This document shows positions 6,409 to 40,598 of a DNA stretch of 64,000 nt, in pieces. Origin of the DNA: Sphaerolaimus hirsutus (taxonomy: Eukaryota > Nematoda > Chromadorea > Monhysterida > Sphaerolaimidae); the NCBI GenBank assembly GCA_964036195.1, contig OZ038454.1, positions 21,562,315 to 21,626,314 on the forward strand. Direction: 5' to 3'. A program made the translations under genes and the position numbers. The notes beneath the pieces are model-generated. The model did no database searches. It saw nothing but the letters and a program-made list of their open reading frames with translations, and was not told the DNA's origin. The stretch's first letter is position 1. The number at the start of each line of letters is the position of its first letter.

Positions 6409-7000
6409 TATACAATATATTCGGCAAACACATTATATACAATATATTTACACTTTACAACATGATTATTTTTAAAAAACTGAGTGTTATACAATACTTA
6501 CTAGGTATTTACAATCGGTTTAGCTACCTCATCGCAATTCACAAAACAGTCAAAAATTGATCACCATCTCGATCATTCAAGTTTCTACTCACAATAACAA
6601 AATCGCTATTTCTCAACGCTCTGCCGTGAGGCAGCACGCAGCCGGTTTGGCCGTTTGCCAACACTCTGCCACACTGAGAGGAGTCATTTCTTCGCCGCTG
6701 CGGCTGCTCGTGGGGTTCGCCGTGCGTCGCGCCAATTCTGCGCCACGGCGCGTTGGTTTCGCTGGCGCGCGGCGGCAAGTTGAAGTAGTCCGGCGCCTGG
6801 CGGCAGTTTGGCCCGGCCGCTCGGCTGTTGGCGACACGCCAGGGGGAAGTGCCGCTTGCGCCAGTGTCTGCGGCGGGTTTGGAGGGAAAATGGAAAAATC
6901 TACGCGGTGGCAATCACCGCGTCACTTCACTGGCACTTTTTTTCTCACTGGCGGGGTGTAAATCAGTATGATTGAATAAATGATTTTTTTCTGCGATTGC
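6409..7000. other. GC-rich block, diverged third copy
   Basis: 6535-6960 is a diverged relative of the GC-rich blocks at about 9955-10,390 and 47,205-47,640 (shared CTCTGCCGTG, CGCCAATTCTGCGCCACGG). The ORFs here are on both strands and differ in frame between the copies, so coding is not supported. Being CpG-rich in an AT-rich region, it may be an old promoter or untranslated region. Confidence 0.45.
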
Positions 7001-8430
7001 GGTGCGTGATGACAGTTTCTTGTAATTATTAGGCCGGAATTAGAGCTCAGCGTCGATTCGACGTGAAATGATGACGTGAAATGACGTCGTGAAATTAATT
7101 ACACGAGTGTGGATCATGCTACGGGTCTACAATTTTCTAAGGATAATATATGAATCAATACCTTAATCGTGTCCAATACTGAGTGTTATCAGCCACAACT
7201 AGAGCGAATTGAAAAATTCAATTTTTATCATTTCACGTCATCATCATTTCACGTCACAGTGTCAGGGAACAACTTGACATTTCACGTCAGACTGCTGCTT
7301 GCAATAATTCCCGCTTTATACAGCGATTCACCAACGTGCTGACATGTAGAAACAAGTTGGGGACAACTTAGACACCATACGTAGAAACAACGTGTTGACA
7401 AAATTGTCAGCGTGGGGACAACAACGTGCCAGCACATTGGAATTTGTGCCCGGAAGTGGGACGCACGTTGGGGCCAACGTGGAGACAACCCGATGCCTAG
7501 CTGTGCGGCAGATTTTACCGCACGCAGTGATGTTTACGAATAAACTATTGATTTATTTTTGGTTGACATCACACTTAGTATGGAAACCATCTGAATAATG
7601 AACAAAAAATTATAGTTTTTTTCATCAAAATATTTCGTTTTTACTATGGAATAATTAATTTCAAAATTTATCACAAGATTCTATTCATTAAATTATGGTA
7701 GGAAACTGCACATTGCGTTCCGCCAAGCATACATCGAAAACAAATATTTCACATGATGCACGCATTCCACATTCTGTACAAGCGTTAAAATGTGAATGCA
7801 AAAGTTCAAAATGTACATCCGGTTTTTTTTAAATTCACGTCTGCTGCCGCACACCAACCCACCCTCCGCACACCAACCCACCCTGGGGCCAACGTGATGA
7901 CCAGCCACATACCCCAGCGTCAAAACAACTTAATGACGCATCGAAACAACGCAGGTGACGCTTTTGAAAATGACATCGCCAAGCGCCAATGGCGCCACCG
8001 GAAAATGGCGCCAAGCGCCAAAAGCGCCATGGCGCTTTTCGGAAGCACGGCGCCAAGCGCCAATGGCGCCAGAGCATTTTAGCGCCAAGCGCCAAAAGCG
8101 CCATGGCGCTTTTTGCTTTGGCGCTAGCGCCAAGCGCCAGCGCCATGGCGCTTTTACATCACTAGTCACGGCCAACGATGGCAAAAACACACATATTAAA
8201 TACGGAAACTCAATGAGTTTCTGTGTTTTTGTTTAACACGGAAACACGGAAACTCAGCAATTTTGAAAAACACGGAAAGTGGACGCTGCAGCCAAACATC
8301 TGTATGCTTTTGAATGCACAAAAGTGATATATCATATACCATGCCATTTTCTAATTGAGCTATCAAAAGATGTATATCAAGGGAAATGTATATTAAATAC
8401 GGAAACGGAAAATAATATTTCCAACACATT
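7001..8430. other. Degenerate transposon fragments
   Basis: Contains an ACGTGAAATGATGACGTGAA motif region (7050-7290) related to the palindrome at 55,790-56,208. A GCGCCAAGCGCC-rich hAT fragment lies at about 7950-8164 and ends ACATCACTA. A left-end fragment of the ACGATGGCAAAA family begins at 8172. No gene seen. Confidence 0.5.
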
Positions 8431-30702: not shown

Positions 30703-31345
30703 TAGGGTGTCAAAAAAAAATTTTTACGGAAAACGGAAACGGAAACGGAAAAAATTTTTCAGTGGCCGGAAAACGGAACGGAAATTAATTTGCACTTGGC
30801 GGAAAACGGAAACGGAAACGGAAAAAAATTTTCAGCAGCCGGAAAACGGAAAAAGAGGCCGGAAAAACGGAAACGGAAAAATCAAATTTGCACGGAAATG
30901 GGAAAAACTTGCTGGAATTTTGCTGGAAATCGAATAAAATTTGCTGAATTTTTGCTGGAAGTGGAAAAAATTTGCAGTAATTTTGCTGGAAACAGAAATT
31001 TTTTTACATCATTGACAATCTGCATGAATTTTTGCCAGTTTGGCTGATCAGAAGACCAAAAGTTGAGCCAGAAAAAGGTAAAATGAGGTGGAAAAATGGA
31101 AAATTGAGGCGGAAAATGGAAAAAAGGCAGAAAAACTGGAAATTGAGGCGGAAAACGGAAAAAAGGCGGAAAAACTGAAAATTTAGCCGGAAAACGGAAA
31201 ATGAGCCGGAAAAACGGAAACGGAAAAAAATGTTGCCGGAAAACGGAACGGAAAACGGAAAAAAAATTTCAGCAGCCGGAAAACGGAAAAAATTTGCCTG
31301 CGGAAAACGGAAACGGAAAACGGAAAACGGAAATTTGACACCCTA
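30703..31345. mobile_element. hAT-like MITE made of GGAAAACGGAAAC repeats
   Basis: TIRs TAGGGTGTCAAAA and TTTGACACCCTA with the exact 8-bp TSD GTCATACC at 30,695-30,702 and 31,346-31,353. The body consists of GGAAAACGGAAAC units in the same direction throughout. The terminus resembles that of the GGGATC family at 20,872. Confidence 0.9.
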
Positions 31346-31898
31346 GTCATACCCCCAAGATAAAGTCCTCGAGGACTATTTCCGCCCAAGGACTACTTCG
31401 GCCCGACTTTTATAGGAAGTAGTCCTCCATAAAAAATAGTATTAAATAGTGCATTGAGTAGGACTATTCCCCCCGCCTGCTCTAATTACACAATTGGGGC
31501 ATCTGTTCATCCACAGGAATGTGTGCTTAGTGTTTGATCTTTCCTTTTATCTATTGCGATGCAAGAACACTGCTTGCATCAGATCACAAAAATTTATTGA
31601 CGCGTGGCACGCCACAATAATGCACGCGTCTGTTAGGCCTATTGGAATCGATTATCGATTGCGGGGGTAAATGAAAAACAATGCATGCAACTTCAAAACT
31701 CTATTTCTTGGCCATTTCTCAGCCGATTTTCACCAATGAACACTTAAAATGATCAGAATCACATGGAGATTGCATTGTTATGTTCAGATTATTGAGAATT
31801 TGGTCAACTCATAGTAATCATGACAGACAAATTGCCAATATACTACAGACAAAATGCCAATGCAACACAGACAAAACCCCAATGGATCACAGACAAAA

Positions 31899-32049
31899 TG
31901 TTTAGAGCGCAGTTCTATTTTTATGCTTTATTTGAGTCCTCACAACAGCTGCTCCCTGTACTCATTTTGGAGCTAAAATACCAGAATCACAGGATCCCAT
32001 TTACATCATACTTACAGGAAAGCACTTATATGATCACAACATCATATCA
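31899..32049 (-). repeat. LTR (3' LTR on the minus strand), 151 bp
   Basis: Starts TGTTTAGAGCGCAG and ends ACATCATATCA. Uninterrupted, unlike its partner. On the minus strand it is preceded by AGGTGGAATG, a weak polypurine-tract candidate. Confidence 0.8.
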
Positions 32050-32101
32050 CATTCCACCTATAAAACAAATGAGACAAGAATTTTGTAGGGTTGTAGGGTT
32101 A

Positions 32102-34004
32102 TCACTCTGTGGACCCTCCAGTAGACGTAGATGGTTGGTCGGAAGCCACGGTGGCGTTTTCCAATTTGGCGGGCAGCTGCTGATCCATCTGTGATATTGA
32201 AAATTTGCAATTTGATTTTAGAGTTTTTTATCAAAATAGTTTTGATTAATCTTGACCTACATTATTACAGTTAAGTAGCCAAATTTCATCTTCTGGGGTA
32301 ACCCTAGGACCCACATATGGATCACAAATTTGTAGGAATTTGCTTTCTTCAGACAAAGAGGAGTATGCATAGTAGTTATTCGGAGCAATTCTCATTACCT
32401 GCAATAGATTCCATTTAACTTATCAATATATGGAGATTGGTGAAATCAGTAAACTTAAATACCATTTTTATAAAAAAAAACTTTCAAATTAAAAACTTTA
32501 ATTGATCTCCCCATTACAAACTGGTTTTTCATTTTCCTTCTCCACAGTGGGCTGCACAGTGGGGAGCATGTTTTCCTGCACATTCACTTGAGTAGTCATC
32601 ACTGGTTGTGCATGATATTTGGGCGGCTGAAACACTGAGTTCTTGATAGCCATTTGTGCCATTTGACCCGCTGTAGTGCTCATGCCAGAGACACTCGCAT
32701 TTGTCATTGGCAGTCCAGCCGAATTGAATGCCGCCATTGTGCCCATTCTGGGGTTGTTGTCATTTTGGTAAACCACCACCACATTTGGCTGGGGCTCATC
32801 CCAATTTGACTGCAAATTATAAATGCGATAGTTTAAATATGTTGCAAAAATATTACTGTTGTTGCGTTGGAGTTTATTTATTTATTTTACATTTTTACTG
32901 TATTTTACATTTTTACATTTTTACTGTATATTGTACCCAAATAAATATTTTTAATTTTTATTTTTTTTTATTTTTTTATATAAGAATTTCAAATTTCAAT
33001 TTAAACTTTTAGAAATTCAATTTCCATTTTTAGGACCTGATCATAAGAATGATGGTCATATGGTGTGGGACGGTTGTGATAACCCCCGCGTCCCCTGCTG
33101 CGGTAGGAACCCCTGCGACCCATTCGCCTCCTTCCTCCGCCGCGCGAGATTCCACCCCTACCATAATTCATCGGCAGTGGCCAGAAATCAGCAGGGTTGG
33201 GGTTATTGCCCAATAGATGTTCCAGTCTGGGAAAAAATGGAGTGCATGCAAAACAAGAATACTCTGGATTTTTTAGTGTTATTATTTTTTGTTTTATGGT
33301 ATTAAAAACATTTTATCAAATTACTTTGTTTTATTTTACTTGATTTTGAAATGTTTTAAATTTTTGTTTATTTTGGTTTAATTATTTATTTTTATTTTTT
33401 ATTTCATTGAATCAAATTTAATTCAAATTAAAAGCCCTGTTTTTTCTAGTTTTACCGTTCTGGGTGTTCCATGGCATGTCCACTCAATAAGTTATCCAAC
33501 CCGATGGGTTCTTTGTGTCCCTGTGGCACCATTGGGGTTTTGAATGTGGTCAACAGATTTGGATACGCCATCTTAATGTGTTTCAATTCGGCACTGGCAT
33601 TGCCACATTTTGCATGTTCAATTTGCAATTTTGACAATTCGGTTTTAGTTTGAATCAAAGCCCTAGCCAATTCAGCGTTATTCGCCTCCCTTCCAACCAC
33701 CTTGCCGGAGATCATTTGAATGAATGGTCCACACCTAAGTATGTTTTTTAAAATTTGTTTTTCAATTTCAATTCAATGATTCAACTTCAATTTCGATTTC
33801 AATTACAATTTCAAATTACAATTTAAATTTAAATTTAAATTTTTGAGTTTTTAATTTTTCTACGTTTGAAATTGATGCAAAAAGTTATTCAAACCTTCTG
33901 CATGTCTGGATGTGCGTTTTGTTGGTAAAACAAAAGCCATTGACCAATTTCTGCTGTAACGATTTTTGATTGTTGCTGAACTGTCCAGCCTGAAACTGAG
34001 ACAT
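32102..34004 (-). CDS. Six-exon cargo gene on the minus strand, RGG-rich protein of about 363 residues
   Basis: Exons are 34,004-33,895, 33,734-33,456, 33,226-33,037, 32,809-32,522, 32,398-32,261 and 32,188-32,102. The phases agree at every junction and the frame ends in TGA. Exon 3 could instead end at 33,007, adding ten residues. The start is M-S-Q-F-Q-A-G-Q-F. A central R/G-rich block (G-R-G-G-I-S-R-G-G-G-R-R-R, then R-S-R-G-R-G-G-Y) resembles RGG boxes of RNA-binding proteins. The N-terminal part has a C-R-R-C motif and a helical, coiled-coil-like stretch. The tail is S/T-rich. No known domain is recognised. It occupies the env position of the element in sense orientation, but its introns would be lost if the spliced RNA were copied. 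Confidence 0.65.
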
Positions 34005-34225
34005 GTTGCTCTGTTGCGTTTTCGCTCTGGTTTTTCAGCTTGATTTTTCAGCGCCCTTTGAGCTTTTGTGCACTTATTTATCATTTAAATTTCATGTCGT
34101 TGGATGTATCTTTTGGAGTGTTTCCAGCATTATTACTGTGTGCGTATCCAAATCTTATTTTTTATAAAAAAGAAAATTTTTGCTGGCGTTCGTTTTTCAT
34201 CATTTTTGGCCAAATCTTCTGAAAG
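34005..34225. promoter_or_regulatory. Likely bidirectional promoter between the two cargo genes
   Basis: 221 bases separate the two divergent start codons. They contain an AT-rich stretch (TTTATAAAAAAG near 34,161). Inferred from arrangement only. Confidence 0.35.
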
Positions 34226-36057
34226 ATGTCGAGCTCAAGTGAGACTACAGGTATTTTCATTGTTATTTTCTATGTCAGTGTAAATTTTATTCAAAATAAA
34301 TTGAATTTGTGAAATTTTCAGGCACGTTGGAAAAGTTGGCGCGTTTAGAAGTGGCTCGCAAATATCATCCTGGCCACGCGCAATTTTGGTCCGATGGCCA
34401 GCGCCGCCGGACCCCCGCAAAATGGCTATTCAATGGCACAAATGCATCGGACATGCACCTGAACGACGCAGCCAAATTGCTGTTGAGCCATCACGAAAAT
34501 ACCCAAATTGGTAAGTTGTTAATTTGCCATTTTGAATTTTCATCTTGCGATTTCGAAAGTGTTTTAATATTTGGAACGGGTATTTAAAGTTAGAAAGGTA
34601 AATTTAAATACATTTCAACCATGCCAATTTTGGCACATATTCAACCGCATCGTTTTGGCATAGTTCCAACTACTGTTTTCACGTAGTAAGTGCTCTTGGC
34701 ATATTCCCAACTATAGTGTTCATGCAGTAAATGCTTTTGGCATATTTCCAACTATGATTTTCACGCAGTCAGCGCGCGCCTCAGTGGCCAGGTCGATTTA
34801 GTTGAAATCAAATTTGTCGACTTTTCAGCCAAAGAGCATGAAGACAGGAAAAGTGTTGGCCGGCAGCATTTTGCTAGTACCAATCAAAGGCATATTCAAG
34901 GCACCAAGTCCATTTCTGTGCCAACATCGTGCGATGTGGATGTGAGTTTTTTGTTTTTGTATTTTGAAATGTTTTAAATGTGTTTTAAATGTTCTTAATT
35001 TGTTATTGATAGAATAGAAAATCGTGATAAGAAATAATAATAATGTTAATCCCAATTTTAGGTGTTATTCCACCACCATCGCACTGACGCGCCCATTGTG
35101 CTTGAAAATGGGTGCTATTTGCCGGCGCGCGTCTTGCTGATTCGACTATGCACATTCGAGGATTGTGAAAAGCGGCACACACAGCAGCTGCATGATTTGG
35201 ATATTTGTGAAATTTATCCAAATGCTGCTTTGGGACTGCCGGTTTGTTTGGATAAATTTTGTTTGTGTTTTGATATGGTCGATAATTATATTATTTGGCT
35301 AAGTGCCAAAGTGTTGAATTCAATTTTAAATTGGCTAAGTGCCGAAGTGTTGAATTCGTTTTTAAAATATTTACAAGATTATTCAAAAGTATTCAATCCA
35401 AATAAATGTTTTAGTTTAAAATGTTGATTAATTAGAAGAGTATTTACAAATTTTATTTGTAATTAATTATTTTTTTTTTCTAGGTGCATATCTACAGCAT
35501 TTACAAAGGCAATTTTTTGCACGATTGTGTGGGTGATTCTTTGCGATATGTGGGTTTCCAATTGAGGATGATTGAGAAATGCTGCCTGATTGGATTTGGT
35601 GATTACAAGAAAATTTTCAGATTTTTGGTGAGCTTTATCTTTATAATTCTTTATTTTCAGTTTTCTGTTTCTAGTTTTCTGGGATTTTTAGGAAATCCTC
35701 AAATCAACAAATTGTTAGATTTTAGTAAATTTTTGAATTAAATTTCAGAAAATTAGCGATCCATTCAACTGGAATCGCGCGCAGTTTGCAAGGTTGTTTG
35801 ACGCTGGCATGCTGCACATTCATGCAGCTATAATGGATACCCCGTCCAATGTTAAGGATCACCTGTGTTATCAGTGTTTCAGTGATCGATTTGGAAGTGA
35901 TAACTTTGCCCCTGGCCCCAATAACATCATGGAAGATACGGGCAAACACCTTCCCAAGAAATTTGAGGGTAGCAAGTATGTTAAGCCGGTTTTTGGTGGC
36001 TTGCATGTGCCAGTGCCCTGGTATAACCGACAGGTGCATTTCAATGTCCACAAATGA
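34226..36057 (+). CDS. Six-exon cargo gene on the plus strand, 339 residues, unknown function
   Basis: Exons are 34,226-34,250, 34,322-34,510, 34,769-34,941, 35,062-35,241, 35,484-35,627 and 35,749-36,057. All five introns have GT-AG ends (for example G|GTAAGT at 34,511 and TTTTAG|G at 35,061). The frame is continuous over 1020 nt to a TGA stop. The start is M-S-S-S-S-E-T-T-G. The protein is basic and rich in H and C, with clusters such as F-H-H-H-R-T-D-A, L-C-Y-Q-C-F and P-G-P-N-N-I-M-E-D-T-G. No signal peptide or membrane segment is seen, and I know no family for it. It runs antisense to the retroelement, so its introns would survive in the element's RNA. It shares a 221-bp divergent upstream region with the gene at 34,004. 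Intact splice sites and frame argue that it is, or recently was, functional. Confidence 0.7.
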
Positions 36058-36323
36058 ATTACTCGGCGGATCGCAAAGTATGTTTTGTTAATTGGATTTT
36101 TGTTTGTTTTGCTTTTTACTCAGCGGATTGCAAAGTATGTGCCATTTCTGTAGGTCAATTTAATGGGCTTAAATTCATTCAGACTCTTGAATCGAATTAC
36201 AGTAAATTAAAAGTGTTTTAATTTTATTTAAATGATATTTGGCCCATTATTTTGAATTTGCGATGAAAATTTTTGGACTTTTGGTTTTTTATTGGAGATA
36301 TAGAAATAAATTCAACGTATATA

Positions 36324-37415
36324 TTAAAATTGTGGAATTTTATAGAGTGAATCTAGTCGTGCTGTTTCTATATCTCCAATTTGGTTTTTTAGTGTTGCTA
36401 GCTTATTAGCGATTTTGATTATTTCAAATGGGCCACTGTATCGCAGTGCCAATTTATTGGGTCCCGATAAAGCGGTTTGTTTTACTAGTACAGAATTTCC
36501 CACAGCCATTTTTTCTACAATTTTGTAGCGCCTTTGTTGGTTGAACCAATTTTGATATTTCTTTTTTGCATTTTCTGTTGCAAATTTAATTGACCTCCAA
36601 GATTTTTGTGGATTTTCAGAAAGAAAAACAGAGCTGGACAAATGGTTAAATTTTGGCATCCGTCCAAAAACTAGGAGGAATGGTGCCATTCTCGTGTAGA
36701 CATTGGCTGCTAAATTGTATTTCAAAATGGCCAGTGGGAGATTAGTGATCCAATCACTGTCCTTTTCATTCATGATTCTCAATTGTGTGCAAATGGTTTG
36801 AATGGACCTTTCAGCTAAACCATTGGTTTGTGGATGGTAGGTTTGTCCGGTTTTATGGACAATATTCGATTTTTTGATGAATTGTTTAAATTGTGTTGAA
36901 AAAAATTCTGGAGCATTATCAGAAATGAGATTTGTTGGTGGTCCATAAATGGTACAAAAATTTTTTTCCAAAGCATTTGTTAGTGTTTTCGATTTTCTGT
37001 TTCTCAAAGGGAATGCTATCATGTATCTTGTTAAGGCGCATACCAAGACAGCCATATATTGATATCCGCACTTCTTTGGTAATTCCACTAGATCTAAATG
37101 TATTGAATGGAAGGGTTGATCTGGTGTTGGTGTGTTCAACAATGGGGCTTTTCCATGTTTATGACTTTTGAATTTTTGGCAAGTGGTACACTTTTCACAA
37201 AAATGTAGGATGTCTTGATGGATTTTTGGCCATGTTCCAAATATTGTCAGCAATGCTAGCGTTTTTTCTGGGCTTCCATGATTGGCATATAATCCCATAT
37301 GAGCTTGCTCTAAAAATGCTTGTTGCCAGTGTGCTGGTATCCATTTCACAAATAATTGGGGGCGATATGGTGACCTGACATGTACTATATTCTGAATCAA
37401 TGTGAAATTTTCCAT
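36324..37415 (-). CDS. Ty3/gypsy-type integrase, 363 codons
   Basis: A retroelement integrase, which joins element cDNA to host DNA. The zinc-binding domain has H39, H46, C76 and C79. The catalytic core has D108 (H-L-D-L-V), D166 (I-S-D-N-A-P-E-F) and E202 (G-L-A-E-R-S), with 35 residues between the last two, hence D,D35E. A GPY/F-type motif (Y-S-G-P-F-E-I) lies near residue 330. The upstream frame is interrupted near 37,445 by a stop, while 37,460-37,650 still reads as polyprotein linker ending D-S-L-N-N-E-Q-V-D-L-W. The ORF itself is unbroken. The rest of pol is missing, so mobility would need help in trans. Confidence 0.85.
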   Translation of the reverse strand: MENFTLIQNIVHVRSPYRPQLFVKWIPAHWQQAFLEQAHMGLYANHGSPEKTLALLTIFGTWPKIHQDILHFCEKCTTCQKFKSHKHGKAPLLNTPTPDQPFHSIHLDLVELPKKCGYQYMAVLVCALTRYMIAFPLRNRKSKTLTNALEKNFCTIYGPPTNLISDNAPEFFSTQFKQFIKKSNIVHKTGQTYHPQTNGLAERSIQTICTQLRIMNEKDSDWITNLPLAILKYNLAANVYTRMAPFLLVFGRMPKFNHLSSSVFLSENPQKSWRSIKFATENAKKKYQNWFNQQRRYKIVEKMAVGNSVLVKQTALSGPNKLALRYSGPFEIIKIANKLATLKNQIGDIETARLDSLYKIPQF

Positions 37416-37758
37416 GATTTCTCCGGACTTTAATTTGTGGAAGACCTTACTGATGCATGAGTCTTCTGATTGTTTTTTTTTGCCATAAATCTACTTGTTC
37501 ATTGTTAAGTGAGTCACTGGTCAATTCAGTATGATCACTGGTCATTTCAACATTATCATTTGGTTCCATATTTTCCGCTAGCATTGCTACATCACTCAAA
37601 TTCTGTGTGGAAAGATCTATTTCAGTGCCTTTTGGCAGTGTTGACGATCAGTCCAGACAAATTGAATGACATCAATTTATTGTCCCTTGGACAATTGTTT
37701 AGCTTGTTGTGGGAGTCCCTACCCCGCCCGAATAGCGTAGAAGTGCTCGTCCACCAAG

Positions 37759-38076
37759 TGTTTAGACTGCAGTTCTATTTTTATGCTTTATTTGAGTCCT
37801 CACAACAGCTGCTCCACATCACTTGGTTCTGGTGGCATGAGGGAAGGAATGACATCAATTAACTTGGCTGAATCATGAAGTAATTGGTCATCTGTTGGGT
37901 CATGGACTTCAATTGGATTTCTACTTAGTTGATCGGCTAGCTTGTTGAAATTAGCTGGTCTATGTTCAATTCTAGTAGCTCCCTGTACCCGTTTTGGAGC
38001 TTAAATACCAGAATCACAGGATCCCATTTACATCATATTTACAGGAAAGCACTTATATGATCACAACATTATATCA
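37759..38076 (-). repeat. LTR (5' LTR on the minus strand) with a 167-bp insertion
   Basis: The LTR sequence is split at GCTCC: 37,759-37,815 and 37,983-38,076. The 167 inserted bases (37,816-37,982) encode, on the minus strand, the end of a Ty3/gypsy RNase H domain. GCTCC is present at both edges of the insertion. Confidence 0.75.
37816..37982 (-). pseudogene. RNase H C-terminal fragment lodged within the LTR
   Basis: The minus-strand frame shows the hallmark end of the Ty3/gypsy RNase H domain, R-P-A-N-F-N-K-L-A-D-Q-L-S-R-N-P. In an intact element this would lie directly before the integrase linker. Here the LTR end and the leader come between, so this piece is displaced. Confidence 0.7.
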
Positions 38077-39004
38077 CAAAACATCAATGCAACATGCGTC
38101 TGTGTTGCATTGATGTTTTGTCTGTGATCCATTGGGGTTTTGTCTGTGTTGCATTGATGTTGTAGTATATTGGCGATTTGTCTGTCATGATTACCATGAG
38201 TTTACCAAATTCTCAATAATCTAAACATAAAAATGCAATCTCCATGTGATTCTGATCATTTTAAGTGTTCATTGGTGAAAATCGGCTGAGAAATGGCCGA
38301 GAAATAGAGTTTTGAAGTTGCATGCATTGTTCTTCATTTACCCACGCAATGCCAATAGGCCTAACAGACGTGTGCATAATTGTTGCGTGCCACGCGTCAA
38401 TAAATATTTTTGATCTGATGCAAGCAGTGTTCTTGCATCGCAATAAATAAAAGTAAAAATCAAACATATAGCACACATTCCCGCCAATCAATAATCGATG
38501 CAGCCTAACAGATGCCTCTGTGAGTGGTATTCCAGTTATATTACGTATACAATAGGGAGGATATAGTCCTCACCAGGGAGGACTATTTACTCCCAGTCGG
38601 GGGATATAGTCCTTGAGGACTTTATCTACCTGGGGGGACGATGTCCATGGGGGGATAGTGTAAGTAACCCACAATAAACGACATGTATAAGGATCTACTA
38701 TAGAGTTAAATATATACCGTATTACTTCGAAATACCCCCAGAGGTTTATTATTTCGCCAGCAAAATGTGAGGGGATGGTAATTCGATGGGGGGGGTCTAT
38801 TATTTCGCCAGAAATATTCGGAAATTCCCCATACTCAGACGTAGAAAAATCAAACAACTACATAGATGTATATGTGTTTTTAGGCATATATTACTGTATA
38901 TACACAAAAACCCTTCCCTAACATCACTCAATCATCAGTTTTAACGTGTGTTCTGCTTTGTACAGATCGCAAACTGCGGTATTTGTCATGTACGTTCTCT
39001 TTAC

Positions 39005-40598
39005 TAGTGATGTAAAAGCGCCAGGATTTTAGCGCCAGGCGCCAAAAGCGCCATGGCGCTTTTCATAGTCCAGCGCCAAGCGCCAATGGCGCCACGACAA
39101 AATAGCGCCAAGCGCCAAAAGCGCCATGGCGCTTTTCCAGAACATGGCGCCAAGCGCCAATGGCGCCAGGAGGCTATGGCGTCAAGCGCCAATGGCGCCA
39201 GCGCCAAAATATTTTCCTTTTATGACGCAGGCACAGTTCACCTATCAGTTTCATCACCTTATGACTTCCATCGTCTCCCAGAACGTAATAATAGCCAAAG
39301 AAAGCCAAAAAGCTTTCTTGCTTAACACTAAAGGTGGAAATTCTACCTGGGGACACTCCCAGACTTTGTAAAACTCTGTTAAGTGTCAAATTACCAGTAA
39401 AATGCCAAAAGTTTTGTAAAAAAACCTGTAAAATGTCAAATGTCATGTAAAATATTCTGTAAAATGTCATTTGAAAGACCCCGTAGAATGTCAAATTTCA
39501 ATATGTTTCACATTTTACAGGGCATTTTACATGACTTTTAAGACTTTTACGACAGGTAGTACGATGCAGAGTTGCGAAAGTGTATTTACACTTACCCAAA
39601 ATACCCGGGTAAATGGGTATTTATATTTACACTTACACTTACACTTTCATAAAATACCCATACACTTTTTTTACACTTTCCTGAGCAAAATACCCGAGTA
39701 CAGAAAGTGTATTTTTTTCTTTCAGATGGCCCTGTTTTATGCTTTTGAGAAAGCATAAAATAGGGTCATGTACAAAAAATAACTGCACAGTGCACACATG
39801 CAGTCATGCATTGAATGTAGAAAATTTGGCAAATGTACAAACTAGTCTTTGATCAGTACTCATGGTATTCTACAGTTTCATCATACTTTTGTAAAAAGGA
39901 CAAGATCAATGGAAATTCACCAGCTGGACACAAAGTCAACTGGCTCTTGCATTGACATTTGCTGCATGTCCATTCTTGCATTTAAACAGTGTGTATCGCA
40001 TTGCTTAATCAGTAAAATATCAACACTGAAAAGGTGCCATTATTAGGGAACTTCATACCACTACAGTATTTGTTACAGTCTGAAATGTTTCATAAAAGGC
40101 AGTAAAATGTGAAATAATGCATGAAAATGACAAATAAATTGATCTAAAGGTAAAAATAGTGGTGTTTTCTAATGCTCAACAGTGAGAGCTCTTTCTAAAA
40201 AAAAATTTACACTTACACTTTTTTTTACACTTTCCTAGGTATTTTTAAAATACCTTACACTTTTTGTATCCATACTCAAAATTTGGAAAGTGTATTTACA
40301 CTTACACTTACACTTTCCAAAAATACCGGTATTTTAACAACTCTGGTACGATGCACACTTCATTCATAAGAATAAAAATAGCCATAAAATGAATTGGCCA
40401 TCGAGCTTACGCAATTCGCAGTCAGTTATCGCAGCGTAAATTTTTCATTCTCTGGCGCTTTTTTGGCGCTTTTTTAAATGCTAGCGCCAAGCGCCAATGG
40501 CGCCACCGGAAAATAGCGCCAAGCGCCAAAAGCGCCATGGCGCTTTTTGCTTTGGCGCTAGCGCCAGGCGCCAGCGCCATGGCGCTTTTACATCACTA
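39005..40598. mobile_element. hAT-like GCGCCAAGCGCC element hosting a second hAT
   Basis: Ends TAGTGATGTAAAAGCGCC and GGCGCTTTTACATCACTA; exact TSD CTCTTTAC at 38,997-39,004 and 40,599-40,606. An introner-family unit (about 39,353-39,550) and the hAT at 39,567-40,345 are inside. Confidence 0.9.
39567..40345. mobile_element. hAT-like CAGAGTTG MITE, AAGTGTAAGTGTAA-rich
   Basis: Ends CAGAGTTGCGAAAGTG and TTTTAACAACTCTG; exact TSD GTACGATG at 39,559-39,566 and 40,346-40,353. The core shares sequence with 16,750-17,000 in opposite orientation (TTGAATGTAGAAAAT, CATGCATTG). Confidence 0.9.

Follow-up and report, generated by a model that had tools for sequence, protein, structure and literature searches.

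Two divergent multi-intron genes downstream of integrase in an LTR retrotransposon lineage of the nematode Sphaerolaimus hirsutus

We analysed a stretch of 64,000 nucleotides (the window) from the nematode Sphaerolaimus hirsutus (assembly GCA_964036195.1, contig OZ038454.1, positions 21,562,315 to 21,626,314, forward strand), in which a long terminal repeat (LTR) element at 31899-38076 carries two genes, gene 1 and gene 2, lying head to head between its integrase and its 3′ LTR. The same pair recurs beside related integrases elsewhere in the genome, and we regard it as almost certain that both are integral, selected genes of the element. The window element itself is an internally deleted copy of an LTR retrotransposon lineage: it keeps the integrase and scraps and is missing gag, protease and reverse transcriptase (RT), as the first-pass annotation of the window had reported; all three occur in relatives. 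By relatives we mean loci in the same genome, labelled by contig (C2, C14 and so on) or by locus (L012 and so on). The mitochondrial COX1 gene has 14 in-frame TGA codons and reads plausibly under genetic code table 5, with AGA as Ser, a pattern indicative of a bilaterian invertebrate.

The element and its two genes

The features of the element, in window coordinates, are the following (TSD, target site duplication).

31894-31898, no strand: left copy of the TSD CAAAA, from the window sequence
31899-32049, minus strand: 3′ LTR in element sense, 151 bp, with TATAA at LTR position 20 and AATAAA at 118 (sense strand)
32102-34004, minus strand: gene 1, sense to the element, 363 amino acids, six exons (gene models)
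34005-34225, no strand: 221-bp spacer between both start codons, presumed divergent promoter
34226-36057, plus strand: gene 2, antisense to the element, 339 amino acids, six exons (gene models)
36324-37490, minus strand: integrase frame with H2C2 zinc domain, rve core and D,D35E; stop at 36324-36326
37596-37758, minus strand: leader remnant adjoining the 5′ LTR, 92-95% identity to the C2 and C4 relatives (first LTR bases included)
37744-37756, minus strand: primer-binding site, tRNA-Ala(TGC)
37759-38076, minus strand: 5′ LTR in element sense, in two pieces (37759-37815 and 37978-38076) split by 37816-37977
38077-38081, no strand: right copy of the TSD CAAAA, from the window sequence

The 151-bp LTRs have TG..CA ends and are bounded by the 5-bp TSD. 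The integrase (36327-37490, minus strand) matches the H2C2 zinc domain with an E-value (E) of 7.4e-13 and the rve core with E 6.2e-15, and the D-35 residues-E arrangement was read from its translation. All 13 nucleotides of the primer site (37744-37756, minus strand) agree with the 3′ end plus CCA of a tRNA-Ala(TGC) gene of the same genome (13/13). These LTR, tRNA and domain matches bear out what had been proposed at first pass, namely TG..CA LTRs, the CAAAA duplication, a primer site and a D,D35E integrase in a Ty3/gypsy-type element. The strand has to be corrected. Since the integrase and the primer site are oriented that way, the element's sense is the minus strand; it follows that the sense gene is gene 1, that gene 2 runs antisense and that the left LTR is the 3′ one. 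Read in sense, the window copy consists of 5′ LTR, primer site, leader remnant, integrase, gene 2 (antisense), gene 1 (sense) and 3′ LTR. A 162-bp piece derived from pol (37816-37977) interrupts its right (5′) LTR; over 148 bp this piece shows 82% identity to the DNA just upstream of integrase in the C14 relative. An alignment of the two LTRs has 7 mismatches in 151 positions and 5 further gap positions; the 7/151 differences indicate that this copy is not young.

The exons of gene 1 (minus strand) lie at 34004-33895, 33734-33456, 33226-33037, 32809-32522, 32398-32261 and 32188-32102, and those of gene 2 (plus strand) at 34226-34250, 34322-34510, 34769-34941, 35062-35241, 35484-35627 and 35749-36057, giving five introns in each. 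The start of gene 2 exon 3 and the frame of the last gene 1 exon were fixed by conservation across copies. Both translations are free of internal stops, and when the gene 2 coding sequence was shuffled by base, 0 of 2000 shuffles were. The earlier description of two open, head-to-head genes with five introns each and starts 221 bp apart therefore stands. The gene 1 stop is 52 bp from the 3′ LTR, which has AATAAA in its sense strand.

The gene 1 protein has a cysteine (Cys) motif, C25/C35/C38, and an Arg/Gly-rich region at residues 150-184 (11 Arg and 11 Gly in 35 residues); comparable stretches occur in gene 1 of C14, C232, C13a and L031, and C25, C35, C38 and E53 are common to the gene 1 N-termini of 11 of the 11 elements compared. 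At curated Pfam cut-offs, neither protein was matched. No Pfam env match was obtained for either gene, and by the standard of errantivirus or retrovirus envelopes neither looks like a membrane-anchored envelope protein. Profile searches against the PDB returned nothing for gene 2, five weak matches at E 0.11-0.89 for the gene 1 N-terminus, coiled-coil proteins among them, and a single match at E 0.45 for the gene 2 group of the distant relatives described below. Neither protein had a match at E 1e-3 in a set of 5.8 billion proteins, a set that seems poor in such eukaryotic elements, as the window integrase, used as a control, was itself unmatched at 1e-20. An AlphaFold model of gene 2 exon 6 alone was discarded (mean predicted local distance difference test score 35). 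The pair adds two protein families without a recognised domain to the known cargo of LTR elements.

A gene pair linked to pol

A search with the LTR and its inner flank gave 24 genomic matches at E 0.001, and five further loci (C2, C14, C4, C15 and C3) have matching 5-bp TSDs outside their outer LTRs. Mismatches between the LTRs of one copy number 0/150 in C14, 0/150 in C4, 2/151 in C2 and 2/150 in C3; the C15 and C3 loci are composites. Fuller members consist of LTR, tRNA-Ala primer site, gag, protease, RT, RNase H, integrase, gene 2 (antisense), gene 1 (sense) and LTR. The C14 relative has a 1231-codon open frame with an RT match at E 3.9e-22, and its zinc knuckle and retroviral protease score slightly below curated cut-offs. 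The pol order protease-RT-RNase H-integrase, characteristic of Ty3/gypsy elements (Metaviridae), was found in relatives, where protease-like and RT domains lie upstream of integrase, and this order supports, at the level of sequence, the assignment of the element to the Ty3/gypsy type. A distant element on C4 (L035 and L033, read separately) is bounded by LTRs of about 144 bp, which match at 98.7% over 152 bp, and has the TSD AGCAG and an integrase inside a 1909-codon open frame. Compared with the window, exon stretches of the cargo are mostly 62-82% identical and intron stretches mostly 44-66%. At the position of the window gene 2 ATG, C14 has CTG, with an in-frame ATG four codons upstream.

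To measure how closely the pair follows pol, matches from cargo searches (with gene 2, gene 1 and the L031 gene 1) were crossed with integrase matches. The integrase search scored 106 loci of 2014 candidates, so that its counts are a lower bound; 64 loci had at least 42% identity to the window integrase, 63 of them tabulated, and the 42 loci below 42% lie outside the table. Of the 27 loci with identities of at least 51%, 25 carry at least one of the two genes no more than 7 kb downstream, and 23 carry the complete pair. Among the 36 loci at 42-50%, either gene is present at 10 and the pair at 7; C3:31698431, a partial integrase (45%) outside the table with no cargo match nearby, makes this 10 of 37. 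RT and integrase lie beside the pair at L029 (integrase 61%), L030 (57%) and L031-L033 (about 51-52%), in the order pol, gene 2 antisense, gene 1 sense.

Loci with more diverged integrases have the same layout. At L036 and L038, of the 42-50% class, the integrase is followed by five conserved antisense blocks and, beyond them, by a sense exon that carries the Cys motif of gene 1; in L037, which is a near-copy of L036, three antisense blocks remain and the sense exon is gone. Antisense and then sense blocks appear again at L039 (40%) and L040 (37%), and antisense exons are in place at five of the five loci read with 37-50% integrase identity. In profile comparisons, gene 1 of the near clade matched that of L036/L038 at E 7.8e-8 and that of L039/L040 at E 2.1e-4. 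Gene 2 is likely to be homologous between near and far clades, judging from place, strand and exon pattern. The first-pass annotation had offered two possibilities, a gene-carrying element or a non-retro module inserted into one, and had suggested searching the genome for other copies of the LTR and cargo. Many were found, in the same order; relatives keep the pair after integrase, as expected of a gene-carrying element, and instead of one insertion we see an architecture common to a deep lineage.

Purifying selection acts on both genes as it does on the integrase, and their divergence goes along with that of the integrase. Rough estimates of the ratio of non-synonymous to synonymous substitution rates (dN/dS) are 0.08-0.17 for gene 2 (4 of 15 pairs computable, dS being infinite in the rest) and 0.06-0.22 for gene 1 (8 of 10 pairs computable, dS above 1.3 in 6 of the 8). 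The corresponding ratios of uncorrected proportions (pN/pS) between the window and C14, C15 and C232, respectively, are 0.22, 0.23 and 0.34 for integrase, 0.23, 0.21 and 0.31 for gene 2, and 0.15, 0.18 and 0.40 for gene 1. Pairwise distances of integrase correlate with those of gene 2 (nine elements, r 0.88, permutation p 2e-4) and of the gene 1 N-terminus (eight elements, r 0.92, permutation p 2e-4), where 2e-4 is the floor of 5000 permutations and C14, C15 and C3a are near relatives, not independent. From these selection ratios and distance correlations we conclude that the pair moves together with pol and is maintained by selection on the element.

Several side observations concern the family. 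The C3 composite (C3:27528945-27559575, L017-L020) spans about 31 kb between outer LTRs, with the TSD AATGT and two sets of cargo and integrase. Seven LTR-like matches cluster at 24.95-25.75 Mb of C9; L021, L022, L023 and L025 lie on C9 and C591, and L021, L022 and L023 have a common left flank and no cargo match, a pattern that suggests an old LTR fragment amplified along with its flank. The primer site of the C14 relative (L012, 3938-3982) covers most of the tRNA-Ala 3′ half up to the anticodon, beyond the usual 18 nucleotides. A 21-nucleotide piece of tRNA-Ala has 13 genomic matches; the three examined outside the element (L042 and L043 among them) are one tRNA gene and two pieces with no tRNA call, each a 3′ tRNA half that terminates in CCA. 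The extended site could stem from the use of tRNA halves as primers or from RT reading past its usual stop.

Retained introns and unspliced RNA

Replication through an RNA copy would be expected to strip an element's sense gene of its introns, and their retention calls for explanation. The window proteins served as guides for modelling the genes of the copies with a splice-aware protein-to-genome aligner. In 8 of 8 gene 2 models the five introns share residue and phase, and two of these models add a doubtful sixth intron. For gene 1, 5 of 7 models agree on all five introns; the other two, from the most distant copies, agree on three of the five. No internal stop occurs in 7 of 8 gene 2 models or in any of the 7 models of gene 1; that of C13a has no stop at its end. 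Because the same introns recur in related copies, and exon stretches are more alike than introns, the gene structure of the window is beyond chance.

The C14 and C4 relatives combine identical LTRs (0/150 mismatches each), TSDs and all five sense (gene 1) introns, and therefore unspliced RNA was reverse transcribed. The claim of the first-pass annotation that the sense gene should have lost its introns was accordingly too strong, given these two relatives and given that Cer1 and retroviral genomic RNAs leave the nucleus unspliced (PubMed Central (PMC) article PMC10309623). A part of it holds, in that one sense intron is absent in some relatives: intron 1 of the window-clade gene 1 is cleanly missing from L031-L033. 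At L039 there is a 138-nucleotide intron near the Cys motif, absent in L040. The presence or absence of these gene 1 introns may reflect loss, or gain. That the L039 intron occupies the exact site of gene 1 intron 1 was considered and rejected, as it lies three codons off in the Cys-aligned register. Counterparts of introns 2-5 of gene 2, but not of its intron 1, are seen in L031-L033, where a hand-built model of L031 served as the guide for the other two.

The introns have persisted in a large lineage and occur in two copies with still identical LTRs; the family is a natural test of how non-retroviral retroelements keep their genomic RNA unspliced. With one sense intron cleanly present or absent, intron loss is directly comparable between the sense and antisense genes of the same element; the present numbers are too small for that comparison.

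A possible regulatory role and its alternatives

The pair may be a regulatory pair like those of complex retroviruses, gene 1 keeping the genomic RNA unspliced or exporting it; as a whole, we rate this proposal a serious possibility somewhat short of an even chance. Full-length genomic RNA would have to stay unspliced despite five gene 1 introns in sense. The gene 1 protein, with its Cys motif, coiled-coil-like stretch and Arg/Gly-rich region, would probably bind the element RNA and, once bound, shield it from splicing or take it out of the nucleus. Spliced mRNAs of gene 1 and gene 2 would probably start in the 221-bp spacer, acting as a divergent promoter, and gene 1 would be polyadenylated in the 3′ LTR. 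A role of gene 1 in RNA export or splicing, suggested by the retained sense introns and by composition, is put forward tentatively. For gene 2, a nuclear regulator of the element or of host silencing is a weak guess, and any one role we might name is improbable. It is possible, if doubtful, that an ancient invertebrate Ty3/gypsy lineage evolved control of the complex-retrovirus kind independently of retroviruses, with a divergent multi-intron pair in the env position whose sense product keeps the genomic RNA unspliced and exports it.

The nearest tested precedent for such a role of gene 1 is CERV of the Caenorhabditis element Cer1, which is made from a spliced mRNA and is required for export of the unspliced genomic RNA (PMC10309623). 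Cer1 is likewise an invertebrate LTR retrotransposon with an extra protein from a spliced mRNA (five exons in CERV); CERV contains a leucine zipper and lacks relatives beyond its own group (PMC10309623). CERV exons 1-3, however, share the gag frame, whereas gene 1 as modelled begins at an ATG of its own downstream of integrase and comprises six exons, to which gag exons may additionally be joined; the word 'antisense' is absent from the text of PMC10309623. Retand elements of plants have antisense open reading frames (ORFs) between pol and the 3′ LTR throughout the lineage, proposed by their author to be regulatory like Tat or Rev (PMC11963269). Their hosts differ, 'intron' is absent from the text of PMC11963269, and the TRP28 domain (PF04195) of the Retand type had no match here up to E 1, though an antisense gene is present. 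LTR elements of bdelloid rotifers are also invertebrate elements with non-env genes after pol, but these are single ORF3 types with known domains (GDSL, DEDDy, env-like and others), and 'intron' is absent from the text of PMC5408684. Complex retroviruses have a spliced sense regulator of unspliced RNA, Rev (PMC10309623), and, in human T-cell leukaemia virus 1 (HTLV-1), an antisense gene (PMC10186651, on antisense genes). We found no sequence relation between them and the present elements, which also have no envelope-like membrane segment; gene 2 seems to start inside the element beside gene 1, not in the 3′ LTR. Among the open-licence PMC papers reached with a limited set of terms, we found no LTR element with two multi-intron divergent genes.

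Several observations weigh against a linked, RNA-regulating pair. No homologue of known function was found for either protein by the Pfam and PDB profile searches. The RNA role of gene 1 is read from its composition and from the need for unspliced RNA, and a cis-acting RNA export element could suffice without a protein. By sequence search, 26 of the 36 tabulated integrase loci at 42-50% lack a cargo match (three of the 26 were read), and the profile comparison of gene 2 between near and far clades is not significant (E 0.15). Damaged pairs occur as well: most of gene 2 is gone from C4; in C2, which gave no integrase match, gene 2 is reduced to its first exons; part of gene 1 is missing from C3a; and gene 2 of C3b carries a stop. 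Finally, about ten loci have gene 2 without gene 1.

There is an even chance that the pair is integral but that both genes act elsewhere than in splicing or export of the genomic RNA, for instance against host silencing, as particle components or in cell-to-cell transfer, while a cis-acting element, or default export, delivers the unspliced RNA. The site between integrase and the 3′ LTR is typical of env and of many accessory ORFs (PMC6431247, PMC5408684), gene 2 has no recognisable domain, and selection and co-divergence are compatible with any function. The composition of gene 1, however, suggests RNA binding, and for env in particular no membrane-spanning stretch was found in either protein, the highest 19-residue Kyte-Doolittle hydropathy means being 1.26 (gene 2) and 0.59 (gene 1).

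We consider it very unlikely that the pair is a useless passenger, a host gene pair captured recently. LTR elements do capture host ORFs after pol (PMC6431247), and one or both genes are lost in some relatives, but the same place and orientation are seen across elements whose integrases are just 37-60% identical, the genes are under purifying selection and diverge with the integrase, and no host source locus was recognised among the cargo search matches, part of whose loci were read.

An equally slim chance attaches to the pair being a separate mobile module that repeatedly landed in, or hitchhiked with, these elements. The gene 2-only loci could be taken to favour it, L027 having no recognised pol beyond a weak integrase scrap (E 0.009). 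Against it, position and orientation after integrase are fixed, distances track the integrase, and integrase scraps stand beside gene 2 in both L027 and L028, as expected of derivatives; the gene 2-only loci look like derivatives that multiplied. Such loci on C6, C9, C14, C15 and C16 have a last exon of 60-64% identity and no gene 1 match nearby. At L028, a 900-bp direct repeat (171-1064 and 6912-7814, 96% identical) encloses gene 2 and the integrase end, with longer LTR-like termini than those of the window family.

The case named at first pass as its refutation, a conserved locus of single-copy host genes flanked by independently inserted LTRs, has practically no chance of being right, as the pair is multi-copy and dispersed in the same order, lies after integrase in relatives, and has matching TSDs outside the outer LTRs at five further loci.

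The window element, a member of the lineage we regard as carrying the pair as its own genes, is centred in a long foldback-type palindrome with arms at 31358-31898 and 38116-38627, up to 96-100% complementary, and its TSD sits at the inner end of the left arm. Arrays lie at window positions 39030-39211, 40471-40548 and 30714-31342, with units GGCGCCAAGCGCCAA-like and GGAAAACGGAAA.

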